NCBI GenBank assembly: GCA_031200235.1
Contig: CP133595.1
Span: 310,001-374,000 of the forward strand
Source of the DNA: Cuniculiplasma divulgatum
GTDB taxonomy: Archaea; Thermoplasmatota; Thermoplasmata; Thermoplasmatales; Thermoplasmataceae
Direction: 5' to 3'
DNA: 64,000 nt
In this document: one piece after another, positions 16,320 to 23,176 of the stretch
Layout: each line of letters starts with the position of its first letter
Position numbering within the stretch: position 1 is the stretch's first letter
The notes under the pieces: generated by a model
Database searches by the model: none
Told to the model about the DNA's origin: nothing
The model's input: the letters and a program-made list of their open reading frames with translations, nothing else
Translations under genes and position numbers: made by a program

Positions 16320-16450
16320 TCTTAAATACAGCGGAAAACCTGAGCCGGTATGAGATTTTTCCAACACCCAACATTGTCCCTGTAAATATCAAAGATTCGA
16401 AGGAAAATCTGGCTTTCAGGCTGAATTTACAATTTCAGATAGTTCATAAA

Positions 16451-16460
16451 CTATATATTT
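16451..16460 (+). promoter_or_regulatory. TATA-like box of the peroxiredoxin gene
   Basis: CTATATATTT lies about 31-40 bp before the peroxiredoxin ATG, and an AGGTGA ribosome-binding site lies between them. This fits a short-leader archaeal promoter. Confidence 0.55.
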
Positions 16461-16490
16461 TGAAAGATACTGATTATATCAGGTGACATT

Positions 16491-17192
16491 ATGCCTGAAG
16501 AAAACAGATTTCCATTGATAGGGGAGAAATTCCCCGAGATGAGTATTGAAACGACGCATGGGAACATGAAACTTCCTGACGTTTTTAAGGGAAAGTGGTT
16601 CATGCTTTTCAGCCATCCGGGCGATTTCACACCCGTATGCACAACAGAATTCTATTCATTCGCTAGAAGATATGATGATTTCCAGAAACTTGGCACTGAG
16701 CTTATTGGATTGTCTGTGGACAGCACCATCAGCCATATTGAATGGGTCAACTGGATCTCTGCTAACCTCAAGATAGAAGTACCGTTCCCCATAATCGGCG
16801 ATGCAATGGGAAGGGTTGCCAGCAGACTGGGAATGATTCAGGCTGAATCTTCTTCCTCAACTGTACGCGCAGTGTTCATCGTTGATCCAAACTCAACTGT
16901 GAGGCTTATTATGTATTACCCACTTGAAATAGGAAGGAACGTTGATGAGCTTCTCAGGGCCATAAAAGCTCTGCAGATGGCGGATAAATACAAGGCAGCC
17001 GTTCCGGCCAACTGGCCCTATAACGAACTCATTGGAGATAAGATACTCAACCCGCCGCCCAAAAACACCAGGGACGTACCGGCCCGCATGAAGGAATTCA
17101 AGGGATACGCCTGGTGGTTGACATACAAAGACGCACCGGAAAGCGACGTTCAGGAGATAAAGAAAATTGTGAAACCGAAGACCGAAAAGTAA
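16491..17192 (+). CDS. One-cysteine peroxiredoxin (Prx6 type)
   Basis: The 233-residue protein has the AhpC/TSA core with the peroxidatic site [13 protein letters not shown] (Cys50) and the long C-terminal domain of archaeal Prx6-type peroxidases. It reduces hydrogen peroxide and organic peroxides. Cys50 is the only cysteine in the protein; several archaeal relatives carry additional C-terminal cysteines. It must therefore use an external thiol for reduction. A TATA-like box and an AGGTGA site lie upstream. The gene ends 26 bases before the left end of the integrated element. Confidence 0.95.
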
Positions 17193-17218
17193 CCTTACTG
17201 CAGCAAAATGCTTCGGAA

Positions 17219-17232
17219 GGGCCGGGACCGGG
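17219..17232. repeat. Left attachment site (fragment of tRNA-His 3' end)
   Basis: GGGCCGGGACCGGG is identical to 23103-23116, which spans the discriminator, acceptor and part of the T-stem of tRNA-His (tRNA on the minus strand). It lies between the peroxiredoxin stop and the integrase gene. The bases just outside the repeat also match for a few positions (AAGG), with one G fewer than in the tRNA copy. Confidence 0.82.
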
Positions 17233-17255
17233 CACTAACTGAAAGGTTCAGTGCC
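17231..17255 (+). terminator. Inverted repeat just inside the left attachment site
   Basis: GGCACT and AGTGCC form a 6-bp stem around a 13-base interior, with a possible further TGAA/TTCA pairing. It lies between the peroxiredoxin gene and the integrase gene. It could be a terminator or an arm-type site for the integrase; no U-run follows, so the terminator reading is weak. Confidence 0.3.
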
Positions 17256-17289
17256 TTACATTTTAATATGCAATTTGGTTATCTTGGTC

Positions 17290-18975
17290 ATGCTACCTGC
17301 AAGTGAGTTGGCCAAGGAGCAAGAAAGATTACGAAAGTCCGGCATTCCAAAGGAATATCAGGAAAAGATTGGACAGTTTTTGAGTGACGGGAGACTTGCG
17401 GGCCTATCAAACGACCGCCTGTACTTTTATGCAATTAGGCTGAGGCAGATTGCTTCCTTAATGCCTGACTCATTCCTTTCGCCGTCGGTAGATGACGTAA
17501 AGGCTCTAATCTCTAGGCTCATGGACGGCAAGATTGGCAGAATGATTAAAGGCTGGAACAAATCCGGCACGTATTCTGACTGAGGCATAGAGAATTATAA
17601 AACTACGTTGAAGAAATTTTACAGATGGCTATACAAAACAGAGAAGTCGGAATGTATTGCATGGCTGAAACCTAACAATCACCCAAACAAGAACGTGAAA
17701 CCTGATAACATGATCACAGAGGATGAAGTGCAGAAGCTTGTAGGATCCCTGAAGAATTCCAGGGATCGCGCCCTCACATACACCTTATACGATTCAGGAT
17801 GCAGGATTGGCGAGCTTTTAACGCTGAGAAATAAGGATATTGCATTTGATGAATACGGGGGAATACTGTCGGTCACAGGAAAGACAGGATACAGAAAGGT
17901 CAGAATTGTTGGGAATTCCATATCGTACCTGAGGGAGTGGCAGAATTCGCATCCCAGCAGGGATGACCCCAATGCATGGTACTTCTGCGGTATTGAATCG
18001 GAAAACAGGGGAAAGAAACTTGAACACGCCAATGTGTATAAATTTATGAGAAAGGGATTGCGGGAAGCAAAGATAGAGAGGCGCATATATCCACACCTGT
18101 TCAGGCACACCAGGGCCACGATCCTCGCCTCACGTGTCACTGAGGCACCGCTGGAGGCACAGATGGGATGGGTTCATGGATCAAGGATGACGCAGACATA
18201 CGTGCATCTATCCGGAAGGGATCAGGACAATGCAATCCTGAAGGCATATGGCCTTGAGGTCAAGGAAGAAAGACCCATTGAATCTCAGAAACCGTCGCTA
18301 TGCCCAAGGTGCAGAGAACCCAATGATCCAAAAGCGAGGTTCTGCTGGAAATGTGGCATGATTCTTGACCAATCACTGACGGAGAAGAAACTCAAGGAGG
18401 AGGCGAAGGAGATCGAAACTGCAATAATGAAATCTGATGTAGTGGATACTCCCACAAAGATGATAGTGGAAACATTCCCTGATGATTTCAAGGATGTGAG
18501 GAAGTTGTCAAGCTCAGGGAAAATCCTGGTTATACCTTGGACATCGGATTCTGATGAAAAGGAAGCTGAATATTCTAGCATGTTTTATGACTATTTTTCA
18601 CAATGCGGCTTTGATGATGTATTGCTTCTGGCAAAATCCGATTCTGAAAATGAAATCCAACGGAAATTCTCTGAGGTAGACGTCATTTATCTTCCAGGTG
18701 GAGACACTGAGGTCATTTATCGCGAGTTAAAACAGAGGACTTTGCAGGACAGGTTACTTGAATTCTCGGGAGTAATAATAGGAAATTCTGCAGGGGCAAT
18801 TGTACTTACAAAAGGGGGGTGGGGCGATGGGAAATTCTACAAAGGTTTCGGCCTCGTTGATTTCTACATTTCCGTTCATTACAAGCTCGACGCAGGTCAC
18901 ATTGCAGAAACGAAAGCTGCTATAAATGTCAATATCCCTGAAAATATGTGGATCACGGTGACATGTGAAAAATAA
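17290..18975 (+). pseudogene. Tyrosine integrase with in-frame TGA, fused to a partial peptidase-E-like domain
   Basis: Codons 1-97 form the helical core-binding domain (MLPASELAKEQERLRKSG onward). Codon 98 is TGA; the same frame continues with ENYKTTLKKFYRWLY, so a single nonsense change (for example Trp TGG to TGA) splits the gene. The catalytic domain is otherwise complete: Arg in GCRIGELL, HLFRHTRAT, GWVHGS and Tyr in TQTYVH, then a zinc ribbon (CPRC and CWKC). From about 18519 the frame changes family without a break, to KILVIPWTSD, YLPGGDTEV and GNSAGAIVL, the core of peptidase E (S51). That domain lacks its first strand and ends early. The gene is probably inactive unless the stop is read through. 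Confidence 0.8.
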
Positions 18976-19051: not shown

Positions 19052-19321
19052 ATGAGAGATCTTTTTTCCAGCTACTGGAAGTGGAAAATAGCCCATTTGA
19101 ATAGCATTCTGGATCGTTACCCGAAATTCAGGACACTTCCCATGTTCCGGATAAGTACCTGCCTAAGAGTAGCTTGGGGATTTGTCCTTTCCTATGGTGT
19201 AATAGACAATGCACTTGTGGGAATTAGTTCTCTTACTTACATTCTTGAATGCATTAACGCCTATAGAGAACCCTATAATGATCCGAATCTTTACGAACGT
19301 CTCAGAAGGTGGTATCAATGA
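19052..19321 (+). CDS. 89-residue protein coupled to the MFS gene
   Basis: The frame encodes a basic, aromatic-rich protein with one moderately hydrophobic stretch near residues 40-62. I do not recognise a family. Its stop overlaps the start of the transporter gene as ATGA, which supports translation and a shared transcript. It lies inside the integrated element. Confidence 0.55.
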   Translation: MRDLFSSYWKWKIAHLNSILDRYPKFRTLPMFRISTCLRVAWGFVLSYGVIDNALVGISSLTYILECINAYREPYNDPNLYERLRRWYQ

Positions 19322-20528
19322 CCGAGTCAGTTGGTGGTAATTATACCAAGAAAAATTTCTCTTTGCTTATGGCGGAAACAGGCATATCGACTTTCGCAAC
19401 CTCCCTCTTCACCGTTCTCATTCTTTGGATTTCAATAACCGAGACAAAATCGGCTTTGATAACAGGAGTAACCAGTGCAATGCTTGTTGCACCTTTGATT
19501 CTGAGTATCGTGGTGGGTGCATTTATTGACAAGGCCCGTAATAAGAAAATTTTTGCTATTTTTGGCCCAGTTTTGAAAGCTTTGGCAACTGGCATTTTGT
19601 TGATTGTAATCCAGAACAATTCGTTAATTTCAGATTCCATTTTCCTATTTATATCTGCATTGGCGTTTGGATTTTCAATCGACCTGCTGGTTCCAGTAAG
19701 AGCCATCTGGAGCCAGAAGTTTCTCAGGAAACCCATATATTTGAAGGGTATGTCCGTAGCCAACCTAGTCTCACGAACATCAAGACTGACAGGATTTTTA
19801 GTTTCAGCTGTTTTATTTACAATGGATTTAAGGACAGGCATTATAATCATCTTGACCTTGTATTTCGTATCCCTTCTGCCAATTCTATTTATAGATACCT
19901 CCAAAGATACGACTATTGGAAGGGAAACGTTAAGGGAAGTGATGAAAGATGGCATTCGATATATGGGTAAGACAAAGTTAGTTGCAGAAGTTGTCTTTAT
20001 TTCATCTTTTTCTGCACTATTTTGGGGAATGTCAGATTCTGCATCTAGCGTTATGATAAACAGGGTATTTGATCTCTCCTCAGCCTATCTTGGCTATACC
20101 TTTTTTGCAATATCTCTTGGGGGATTATTGGTTCAACTTTAACATCTAAACTTAAATCCGTGAAGAATGTCGGTAAAAAACTTCCGCTACTTTATGGTCT
20201 TGGCGGTCTAAGCGTGCTACTCATAGCAATTTTTCCGACGATTTACGTCCTTCTCTCAGTTTTCTTTATAGTGGGTTTTTTATCAGGAATCACTTCTCCT
20301 CTTATTTCAGCCGTCCTTTTTGGTAATGCTCCTCGGGAGAAAATGGGGCGCATTCAGGGAGCAATGGATACCTTTGGAACATCATTCAATTCAGTATCTG
20401 GCATTTTAGCAGGAGTTATAATGACCGTAATGTTTCCTGGAAATGTATTTTACATCATGGCAGTTGGTTTAGTTGTACTTTCCGTGATAGTTTCAAGGTT
20501 CAAGACGCTATCGAAGATAAATGTGTAA
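19318..20528 (+). pseudogene. MFS transporter split by a one-base frameshift
   Basis: The first frame (to the TAA at 20140-20142) gives about 274 residues with the N-terminal half and part of the second half of a major facilitator transporter. The second frame, which includes GTG at 20160, continues the same fold (KKLPLLYGLGGLSVLLIA) to 20528. The two join smoothly at the G run 20119-20123: six G instead of five would read SLGGIIGSTLTSKLK without a break, giving a protein of about 403 residues. So it is a recent frameshift, a slippage site or a sequencing undercall. Substrate unknown; related carriers often export drugs. Confidence 0.75.
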
Positions 20529-20954: not shown

Positions 20955-21599
20955 ATGAGCAATGAGTTATCAAGACATGTCGTAGGGTATGCCAGGGTTT
21001 CAACAAGGGACCAGGACCTGACCTCCCAGGTTGAAAGGATCCAGAGATACATTTCAGATTGTGGCCTTATTCCCGCCGTGGAAGGGGCAATATTCCAGGA
21101 GAAGATGTCCGGGGCATCCAACCAGAGGCCGGAAAGATCTAGGATTCTCAAGCTTGCAGAACAGGGTAAGATTGACCTGGTGATATGCACCAAACTGGAC
21201 AGATGGGGAAGATCCCTCAAGGAACTCATAGAGACCATGACCTTTCTTGAGGCTCATAATGTCAGCATGGTATTTCTGGACCAGAATATCGACCTGAGCT
21301 CACCAATGGGAAAGATGCTTTTCCAGATACTTGGAGCTGTGGCAGAATTTGAACGCAATCTTATAGTGGAAAGGACCCAGGAGGGCAGGATGAGGGCAAT
21401 GCTTCATGGAACCGGGTCAGGGAAACCCATGCATGGTCCTCTGAAAGATCTTCCAGAGAAGGCCATAATTCAGAGATACAGGGATGGTGCATCTATAAAG
21501 GCACTTGCAGCAGAATACTTGGTATCTCCCAACACTATAAGAAAAAGGTTGACAATGGCCAATTTGAGAGTAAGGAGCTGGAAACTGGATAATAGATAG
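20955..21599 (+). CDS. Serine site-specific recombinase (resolvase/invertase type)
   Basis: The 214-residue protein has the small serine recombinase catalytic domain with GYARVSTRDQD (catalytic Ser in VST), ICTKLDRWGRS and the AEFERNLIVERTQEG helix, followed by a C-terminal helix-turn-helix (SIKALAAEYLVSPNTIRKRL). The domain order, catalytic first and HTH last, is that of resolvases and invertases, not of IS607-type transposases. It appears complete. It could resolve multimers or invert DNA within the element; no inverted target segment was identified. Confidence 0.9.
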   Translation: MSNELSRHVVGYARVSTRDQDLTSQVERIQRYISDCGLIPAVEGAIFQEKMSGASNQRPERSRILKLAEQGKIDLVICTKLDRWGRSLKELIETMTFLEAHNVSMVFLDQNIDLSSPMGKMLFQILGAVAEFERNLIVERTQEGRMRAMLHGTGSGKPMHGPLKDLPEKAIIQRYRDGASIKALAAEYLVSPNTIRKRLTMANLRVRSWKLDNR

Positions 21600-21606
21600 A
21601 ACAGGA

Positions 21607-21825
21607 TTAGAGGAGTTTCTGAAATTCCTCTATGCTCAAGCCCGCCTGTTTGATTATTGCCCTTAAAAGTCCAGGACCCAGCTCTCTGTGATTTGGGACC
21701 GTAATCTTCTTTCCGGATGGGTTTACGAGCGTAATGTGGCTTCCTGTTTGATGGTCGAAATCATAACCTATCCTAGAAAGAGCCTTTATTACATCATTCC
21801 CGGACAGCACCGGAAGCTTAGGCAT
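21607..21825 (-). CDS. hicA: HicA-type toxin (mRNA interferase)
   Basis: The 72-residue protein matches HicA/YcfA: a dsRBD-like fold with the motif GYDFDHQTGSHITLVNPSGK, in which the histidine of GSH is the expected catalytic residue. HicA cleaves mRNA and is neutralised by HicB. The gene overlaps the upstream hicB by eight bases. Gene order hicB-hicA is one of the two common layouts. It lies in the integrated element and could stabilise it. Confidence 0.88.
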   Translation of the reverse strand: MPKLPVLSGNDVIKALSRIGYDFDHQTGSHITLVNPSGKKITVPNHRELGPGLLRAIIKQAGLSIEEFQKLL

Positions 21826-22027
21826 TCAGTATTACTTCCTCTCCAACATCTTCAGGAATGGGCTCATTGTGCTTTTTAAGGGAGCCTATATATGATTCTA
21901 TGGCCTCCTTGGCATTCTCAAGAGCTTCACTTTTCGTTTTACCCTGGGTGAAACATCCTGGTAGTGCAGGGACACTGACAACATAGAATCCAGCCTCATC
22001 CCTTTCAAATATAACAGTATACTTCAT
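21818..22027 (-). CDS. hicB: HicB-type antitoxin
   Basis: From the ATG at 22025-22027 the product has 69 residues, MKYTVIFERDEAGFYVVSVP onward, with the HicB motif PALPGCFTQGKTKSEALENA. This partial RNase H-like fold binds and inhibits HicA. I prefer this start to one 22 codons upstream because it matches where family members begin. No separate DNA-binding domain is visible, so autoregulation would need the complex. Confidence 0.88.
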   Translation of the reverse strand: MKYTVIFERDEAGFYVVSVPALPGCFTQGKTKSEALENAKEAIESYIGSLKKHNEPIPEDVGEEVILNA

Positions 22028-22233
22028 CATAGAACAATGCATAGCGAATGTATAAGGTTTTTTCCTACAGGTTTCTCTTAAGGTTATAGTCATGAAACTT
22101 AGGCCATTTTTTGAAAGAGATTGAAACCAGAGGTAGTTGAAGAAAGATCTTCACTTGCGTTTTAAATTTATGTAACATGTCAGGAGCTATAGGAATCTGA
22201 ATTTTTCCCTGAAAATACTAGCTTTCTTTCTGT

Positions 22234-22816
22234 TTATCCTTCTGGTTGCTTTCTGTCCCGGAATGACTTGAGGTTCTTAATCGAGTTTGGGTTCATATTC
22301 CTTTTAGGTTTGGCCTTCTCTTTCTGGATATCCGACATTGAATGCAGCACTCTCTGAACCTCTTTCTGCTTCTTTCTTATTTCGCCATACCTTTTCTGCT
22401 CATATGAGTCTATCAACCACTTTGGCAGGAGGTTGAATTTCACAGCTTTAACTGTTATTGTTTTTGCACGGAGTCCCCTGTTGGGAACCTGAACCCTGGG
22501 ATAGACAAGGAAATCCTCTCCCCCTGAATGGATTGGGTTCCGGCAGCTTGACCTTGAACACTCCCTGTTCTCTTGTGGCCTCAAAGAAGATGTTTATGAG
22601 GCCTCTTGTCTGTGCATCTATGTAGTTCCATTTGGGCACTGTTATGAATGTTATGAGGTTCCTGTACCGGAAGGCCTGCTTAGGGACATTGAAGAAATCA
22701 TAGGGAAGAATAAATCTTATAGTTCTGCTTAAGGAGTTCATAAACAGTGCTGTCCGAAATGCGATTGAAAGATGGAGAAGGAACTGCGCAGTAGGATAAC
22801 AATGCACCACAGTCAA
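22234..22816 (-). pseudogene. Frameshifted gene of unknown function in the element
   Basis: Two overlapping minus-strand frames read as one protein. The upstream frame ends its plausible part at KVKLPEPNPF, and the downstream frame continues EDFLVYPRVQVPNRGL and a lysine-rich helical tail (KKQKEVQRVLHSMSD). The switch occurs at a run of five C on the plus strand near 22520-22524 (five G on the minus strand). One more G would give PNPFRGEDFLVYPRV without a break. The joined product would be about 194 residues. I do not recognise the family. Confidence 0.5.
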
Positions 22817-23102
22817 GTGTCACAATTCTTTCTGATCAACCTTCAGTCAAGGGCAAGCTGGAAGAATTTATGGTAAGCCACAAGGAGTGCTCAGCTGATT
22901 CTAAATTTAATCGAAGTAGAATCATAATCAACAGGCATTTTTAAAACTCTTGAATAGTAACCTCGTGGCAGGCCTCAGAAGGTCATCCACCTTTATTCAG
23001 TGTTCAAACGAACGCATTAAGAATACCTTTAGTGACAGAAAGATGCATAAGAATGATAAGATAATAATTGCAGAAGCCGTATGGCAGTGAACTTTTAAGA
23101 AG
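22817..23102. other. Right end of the element, no gene recognised
   Basis: About 290 bp between the frameshifted gene and the tRNA-His 3' end. It is AT-rich, has no convincing frame and no clear repeats. It may contain remnants of lost cargo. Confidence 0.4.
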
Positions 23103-23116
23103 GGGCCGGGACCGGG
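23103..23116. repeat. Right attachment site, within tRNA-His
   Basis: GGGCCGGGACCGGG is identical to 17219-17232. In the tRNA (minus strand) it covers the end of the acceptor arm and the 3' side of the T-stem. Confidence 0.82.
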
Positions 23117-23176
23117 AATTGAACCCGGGTCCGGGGATCCACAGTCCCCAAGGATGCCCACTACCCCACCCCGGCC
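23104..23176 (-). tRNA. tRNA-His (anticodon GTG)
   Basis: The minus strand folds as a full cloverleaf: acceptor stem GCCGGGG/TCCCGGC, anticodon arm GGGGA-CTGTGGA-TCCCC and T-arm CCGGG-TTCAATT-CCCGG. The anticodon GTG reads histidine codons. The extra 5' G paired with C73, typical of tRNA-His, is encoded (23176 and 23104). CCA is not encoded. It is the integration target of the element to its left. Confidence 0.95.

Follow-up and report, generated by a model that had tools for sequence, protein, structure and literature searches.

An integrase–peptidase reading frame in a decayed element at tRNA-His in Thermoplasmata, very probably a relic of deletion or rearrangement

Classical tyrosine integrases of archaea are encoded beside an attachment site, target the 3′ end of tRNA genes, have direct repeats at both ends of the element and share a set of catalytic motifs (PMC8371274). 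The integrase gene described here (int) agrees with them in each of these respects; unlike them, its relatives carry a C-terminal zinc ribbon and an α-helical tail, and the copy described here is interrupted by a nonsense codon and no longer has that tail. The second gene involved, pepE, belongs with peptidase family S51 (peptidase E, cyanophycinase, 3l4e), with which it shares the GNSAGA nucleophile motif and a downstream VHY, but the copy studied here is without strand 1 and the GGED..R motif; solved members of the family are ~15–23% identical to an intact pepE relative. Two further systems bear on the surroundings of these genes. In G003, G019, and G286, genes of archaeal SSV-type (suicidal) integrases (PF16795) begin exactly at a tRNA-Ala-derived site, which is also found behind int and at the borders of pepE; the fused int is a PF00589 enzyme. 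Integrons, with IntI and attC, are also known from archaea (PMC9668308), and their arrays of tandem small cassettes with short same-strand repeats and many toxin-antitoxin genes resemble in layout the arrays reported below; unlike those of integrons, the repeats here derive from tRNA-Ala.

The window analysed is a stretch of 64,000 nucleotides, positions 310001–374000 of a single-contig 2.0-Mb genome (G000) whose relatives are uncultured Thermoplasmata. Its features are given in Table 1.

Table 1. Coordinates of the int::pepE frame and of the element that contains it
Feature	Position	Strand	Basis
1-Cys peroxiredoxin gene, chromosomal left flank of element	16491..17192	+	AhpC-TSA Pfam match; adjoins tRNA-His in the G004 empty site
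attL, displaced 14-bp copy of tRNA-His 3′ end (GGGCCGGGACCGGG)	17219..17232		Direct repeat of 23103–23116; left empty-site homology ends at 17232
int codons 1–97, N-terminal (core-binding) part, cut off by TGA	17290..17580	+	Collinear with G003 ortholog and intact relatives of 428–431 aa
Nonsense codon TGA, codon 98 (TGG in relatives)	17581..17583	+	Comparison with relatives
int catalytic domain and zinc ribbon, without last ~28 codons	17584..18495	+	PF00589; motifs; missing tail present in G003
TTCAAGGA, common to both parents at the join, Phe-Lys-Asp in each	18487..18494		Base 18495 follows int, 18496 follows pepE
pepE (S51 peptidase) remnant without first ~22 codons	18496..18975	+	PF03575; alignment A1; predicted fold of intact relative
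89-aa ORF, also behind pepE in G019	19052..19321	+	Comparison with G019
MFS transporter, 5′ part, frameshifted (intact 406 aa in G034)	19309..20142	+	Comparison with G034
MFS transporter, 3′ part, different frame	20160..20528	+	Comparison with G034
Serine recombinase (resolvase) inside element	20955..21599	+	PF00239, E = 1.2e-41
HicA toxin, inside element	21607..21825	-	PF07927, E = 3.5e-20
HicB-like antitoxin, inside element	21818..22093	-	PF15919, E = 3.8e-12
Right end of original element	22665..23102		87% identical to element right end in G003:C4 beside its tRNA-His
tRNA-His (GTG), integration target; attR 23103–23116	23102..23175	-	14-bp direct repeat; empty site

The reading frame and the join between int and pepE

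From the ATG at 17290 to the TAA at 18973–18975 the frame is open, with the TGA at 17581–17583 (codon 98) as its sole interruption, confirming a sequence-only reading of this DNA that had described it as open on both sides of that codon. The same reading held that one substitution splits the integrase domains, and this was borne out, as codon 98 is TGG (Trp98) in close relatives; with the TGA between them, the N-terminal and catalytic domains are not in one frame. Beyond the TGA, a Phage_integrase match (PF00589, E = 4.9e-21) covers residues 43–210, with the tyrosine recombinase catalytic residues R, K, HxxR, H/W, and Y all present (CRIGEL, GKTGYRK, HLFRH, GWVHG, and TYVHL). A Peptidase_S51 match (PF03575, E = 8.3e-16) follows and begins inside the profile, at position ~21; between the two matches lies a zinc ribbon whose score is below the Pfam cut-off. 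The pepE remnant keeps its serine motif, as had been noted earlier, together with VHY, and GNSAGA and VH are invariant in 26 aligned sequences that include the one in the window.

Genome comparisons showed that homology to int reaches 18494–18499 and that homology to pepE begins at 18487, placing the join at 18487–18495. The zinc ribbon does run into the interior of the S51 domain, as had been read from the letters, but the junction is not at ~18519, where it had been put. Relatives of int continue past the join with a tail of their own of ~28 codons (..FPEDFKDLIFETVLKQIAENPELREKFQRELTEQGK). Relatives of pepE begin ~22 codons earlier (M..QIIILQGGEDVKRRTNETLFKDVRK..), and this extra stretch holds strand 1 and the GGE..R motif, which is near-invariant, in agreement with the earlier remark that the first strand is missing. 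The bases at the join are TTCAAGGAT GTGAGG in the window, TTCAAGGAT CTGATC in the closest int relative, and TTCAAGGAC GTGAGG in the pepE relatives. Since base 18495 follows int and base 18496 follows pepE, the crossover lies inside the shared TTCAAGGA or at its end; these bases encode Phe-Lys-Asp in the same frame in int and in pepE. Eight identical bases span a random join at a frequency of 1.8e-4 in this sequence; chance is irrelevant here, because the two sides are homologous to two different families at 85–94% protein identity. We regard the fused ORF as very probably an in-frame deletion or rearrangement relic within a decayed element at tRNA-His, and on the sequence evidence it is a pseudogene, in which an integrase without its C-terminal tail adjoins a peptidase without its first strand.

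The two halves were searched separately, as the sequence-only reading had proposed. pepE is present in 32 of 400 genomes of the class, in 31 of them in frames of no more than 258 aa, the 463-residue frame occurring only in G000; int is present in 48 of 300 genomes, and its matching frames are integrase-sized. Among these 400 genomes for the pepE half and 300 for the int half, we found no second int::pepE fusion: it was absent from all 31 other pepE-bearing genomes and from all other int-bearing genomes found. The congener G003 has both parents unfused on separate contigs, its int being 94% and its pepE 85% identical at the protein level. No intact pepE and no reciprocal pepE N-terminus was found elsewhere in G000, and viral contigs held neither a relative of the query nor a copy of the join. 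One match that seemed to cross the join (1–327, in L054) was a loose alignment to an integrase that is intact and unfused. A family of fused proteins was rejected because the genomes searched gave this single instance, and annotating the ORF as a new family would be a mistake. The reading had left two interpretations side by side. The first, a frame-keeping deletion junction, is supported by the unfused parents in close relatives and by the 8 bp common to both at the join; its alternative, an unusual chimeric protein or real fused family, is not supported, as these genomes hold no second fusion and the fused peptidase lacks the near-invariant motif. What it had named as the mark of a one-off product, unfused homologs in close relatives and no second example, is what was found. 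The element at tRNA-His and the route by which the genes may have become neighbours had gone unnoticed.

G10, G11, E12, and R17, near-invariant at the start of pepE in the 26 aligned sequences, are all missing from the window copy. The predicted fold of an intact pepE relative (pLDDT 91) has its first strand at residues 3–9 and, in a fold search, resembles cyanophycinase and peptidase E structures with E-values down to 5e-9; a sequence search of solved structures gave a weak match only, to 3l4e (E = 0.0016). When the fused version was submitted to the same prediction program, the int tail that replaces the start of pepE was modeled as a low-confidence helix and strand 1 was absent. The fused protein is not expected to have a function.

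The element at the tRNA-His gene

The element is ~5.9 kb long and is flanked by 14-bp GGGCCGGGACCGGG direct repeats at 17219 and 23103, the int::pepE gene forming its left end. An empty site was found in the congener G004 (G004:C153), in which peroxiredoxin, tRNA-His, and methyltransferase genes lie in a row; homology between G004 and the window ends at 17232 and resumes at 23103. In G003, both ends of a related element occur at the same two flanks, with 91% identity on the int side (C6) and 87% on the right side (C4). These genome comparisons show that a decayed element has tRNA-His as its site, occupying the 3′ end of that gene, with the peroxiredoxin gene on one side and the methyltransferase gene on the other. 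The int gene of this element is not intact for excision, given the TGA at codon 98 and the loss of the C-terminal tail. Integration of the element into pepE, with the att site of int inside pepE, was also considered, as all int matches end at the place where all pepE matches start; it was rejected because the att site of int is the tRNA-His copy on the left and intact int continues ~28 codons past the join. Anchored as it is by close relatives, the locus is a clean case of the decay of an integrated element splicing two unrelated genes in frame.

Along window positions 16401–17450, identity to G003:C6 rises from ~65–70% to 93–98% over the peroxiredoxin gene and the start of int and is then ~88%. 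The stretch of 93–98% has the look of a tract recently recombined between the G000 and G003 species. Two more int remnants occur in G000, at 181 kb and 1014 kb. The one at 181 kb (G000:C1:181149-183371, L042) lies, by inspection, near an intron-bearing tRNA-Met and also has a TGA at a Trp codon.

Other readings of the fused frame

The nonsense codon in int could in principle be read through, as Trp or otherwise, to give a full protein of 561 residues. There is a single stop with open frame on both sides, and the ortholog in G003, which occupies the corresponding chromosomal position on a contig with 132x coverage, likewise has exactly one stop at a Trp codon (Trp113), 15 codons away. The stops of the two orthologs differ, however, G003 having TAG, and that each ortholog has acquired its own nonsense codon points to ordinary decay; stops also occur in several further integrase copies of the class. 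TGA is, moreover, the commonest stop codon in the window, ending 27 of its 62 long ORFs, and the long frames there contain 117 TGG codons. Recoding of TGA was rejected on this stop usage; read-through is scarcely credible, and the TGA at codon 98 should not be read as recoding. Between the int genes of G000 and G003, omega is 0.08, indicating strong purifying selection since divergence. This value and the lack of any further stop in the 463 codons of the fused frame imply that the decay is recent or that some constraint remains; polarised counts agree with a decay that is recent relative to the split of the two. An assembly chimera at the join is very improbable, since the G000 genome is one contig and, on either side, the outer flank and the element end match the same site in G004 and G003.

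A real chimeric protein, produced from an internal start after the TGA and possessing a working catalytic domain or a peptidase of near-native length, would account for a frame that stays open over 463 codons and retains all catalytic integrase motifs and both the Ser and His motifs of the peptidase. The pepE part has an omega of 0.23–0.36, like that between unfused copies. Against such a protein stand its occurrence in one genome only, the loss of the near-invariant GGE..R and strand 1 with no replacement, the frameshift in the downstream transporter, and five private changes where pepE is otherwise invariant, the highest number in the eight lineages compared; neither omega nor private changes can date the fusion. 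We consider a functional chimera very unlikely and return to the fused frame as a relic of deletion or rearrangement.

The tRNA-Ala-derived site and its repeat arrays

How int and pepE came to be neighbours may be indicated by a sequence that both parents border. GGACCGGTCGGGATTT, which is the 3′ end of tRNA-Ala, or a close copy of it, lies within ~3 bp of the int stop in G003 and in the two other G000 remnants. A ~38-bp repeat that starts with tRNA-Ala-derived sequence is located 146–147 bp upstream of the pepE TTCAAGGA in six of seven close homologues. These upstream repeats have 2, 7, 10, 10, 12, and 12 mismatches per 38 bp and are strong only in G185 and G264 (2 and 7), in which the repeat is found on both sides of pepE; in the others it is upstream only or degenerate, and none is left in the window. 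In G003, 101 bp separate the int TTCAAGGA from the tRNA-Ala-like site. We propose that pepE would have arrived as a cassette bounded by the ~38-bp repeat and inserted at the copy of the site ~3 bp behind the int stop. The direct repeats of TTCAAGGA would then have stood ~101 + 147 = 248 bp apart, and a deletion of ~248 bp between them would have removed the int tail, the site, and the start of pepE. A modelled deletion between the TTCAAGGA copies gives exactly the observed frame. No genome was found to contain an int-site-pepE intermediate, which leaves the ~248-bp deletion as a model, and we lean slightly toward insertion behind int followed by this deletion as the route taken.

Direct illegitimate recombination of distant loci, or recombination between copies of the element, without a cassette ever lying behind int, is a variant of the same explanation that differs only in the route. 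Eight bp of identity would suffice for it, and in G003 int and pepE each precede a near-identical PF16795 integrase gene, so that element copies could recombine. It offers no explanation for the fact that, in relatives, the same tRNA-Ala-derived site adjoins both parents, and we consider it possible but rather doubtful. Under the cassette route, the pepE half might even be a cassette of an integron-like Thermoplasmata system moved by PF16795 integrases and the fusion an insertion scar behind the integrase of another element, a suggestion that we make tentatively.

The repeat (consensus ATGGACCGGTCGGGATTTGATTAAAGTTTTAAGcGAATAC), whose first ~18 bp are the 3′ end of tRNA-Ala, also occurs in same-strand arrays. 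In G000, 11 copies are spread over 27 kb (C1:896069-923104; L231, L232), leading to a tRNA-Ala gene at ~925.2 kb, while G381 has eight copies in 12 kb and further arrays occur in G015, G012, and G311 (array loci of relatives: L191–L199, L157, L158). Over 166 kb we counted 41 copies vs. none in shuffled sequence, and as several of these loci had been picked for holding the repeat, the shuffle shows only that the matches are not due to chance. In G019, G003, and G286, PF16795 integrase genes (L213, L214, L215, and L223) begin precisely at the tRNA-Ala form of the site, which itself supplies their first codons (MDRSGFEPEASCL or the same bases); a search of G000 yielded no PF16795 integrase. The arrays may be moved by PF16795 enzymes or may be plain accretions of elements at tRNA-Ala.

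In its main text, the paper on archaeal integrons (PMC9668308) makes no mention of Thermoplasma*, and the word "cassette" is absent from the accessible text of two recent papers on genomic islands or mobile elements of acidophilic archaea (PMC12302457, PMC12350378). The cassette-array architecture is widespread across the family, G000 included, and apparently undescribed. Arrays of repeats derived from a tRNA gene would make cassette capture by enzymes other than IntI testable in archaea, and this side finding merits a separate study. The cassettes in the arrays are small and often hold toxin-antitoxin genes of the VapBC and ParE types.
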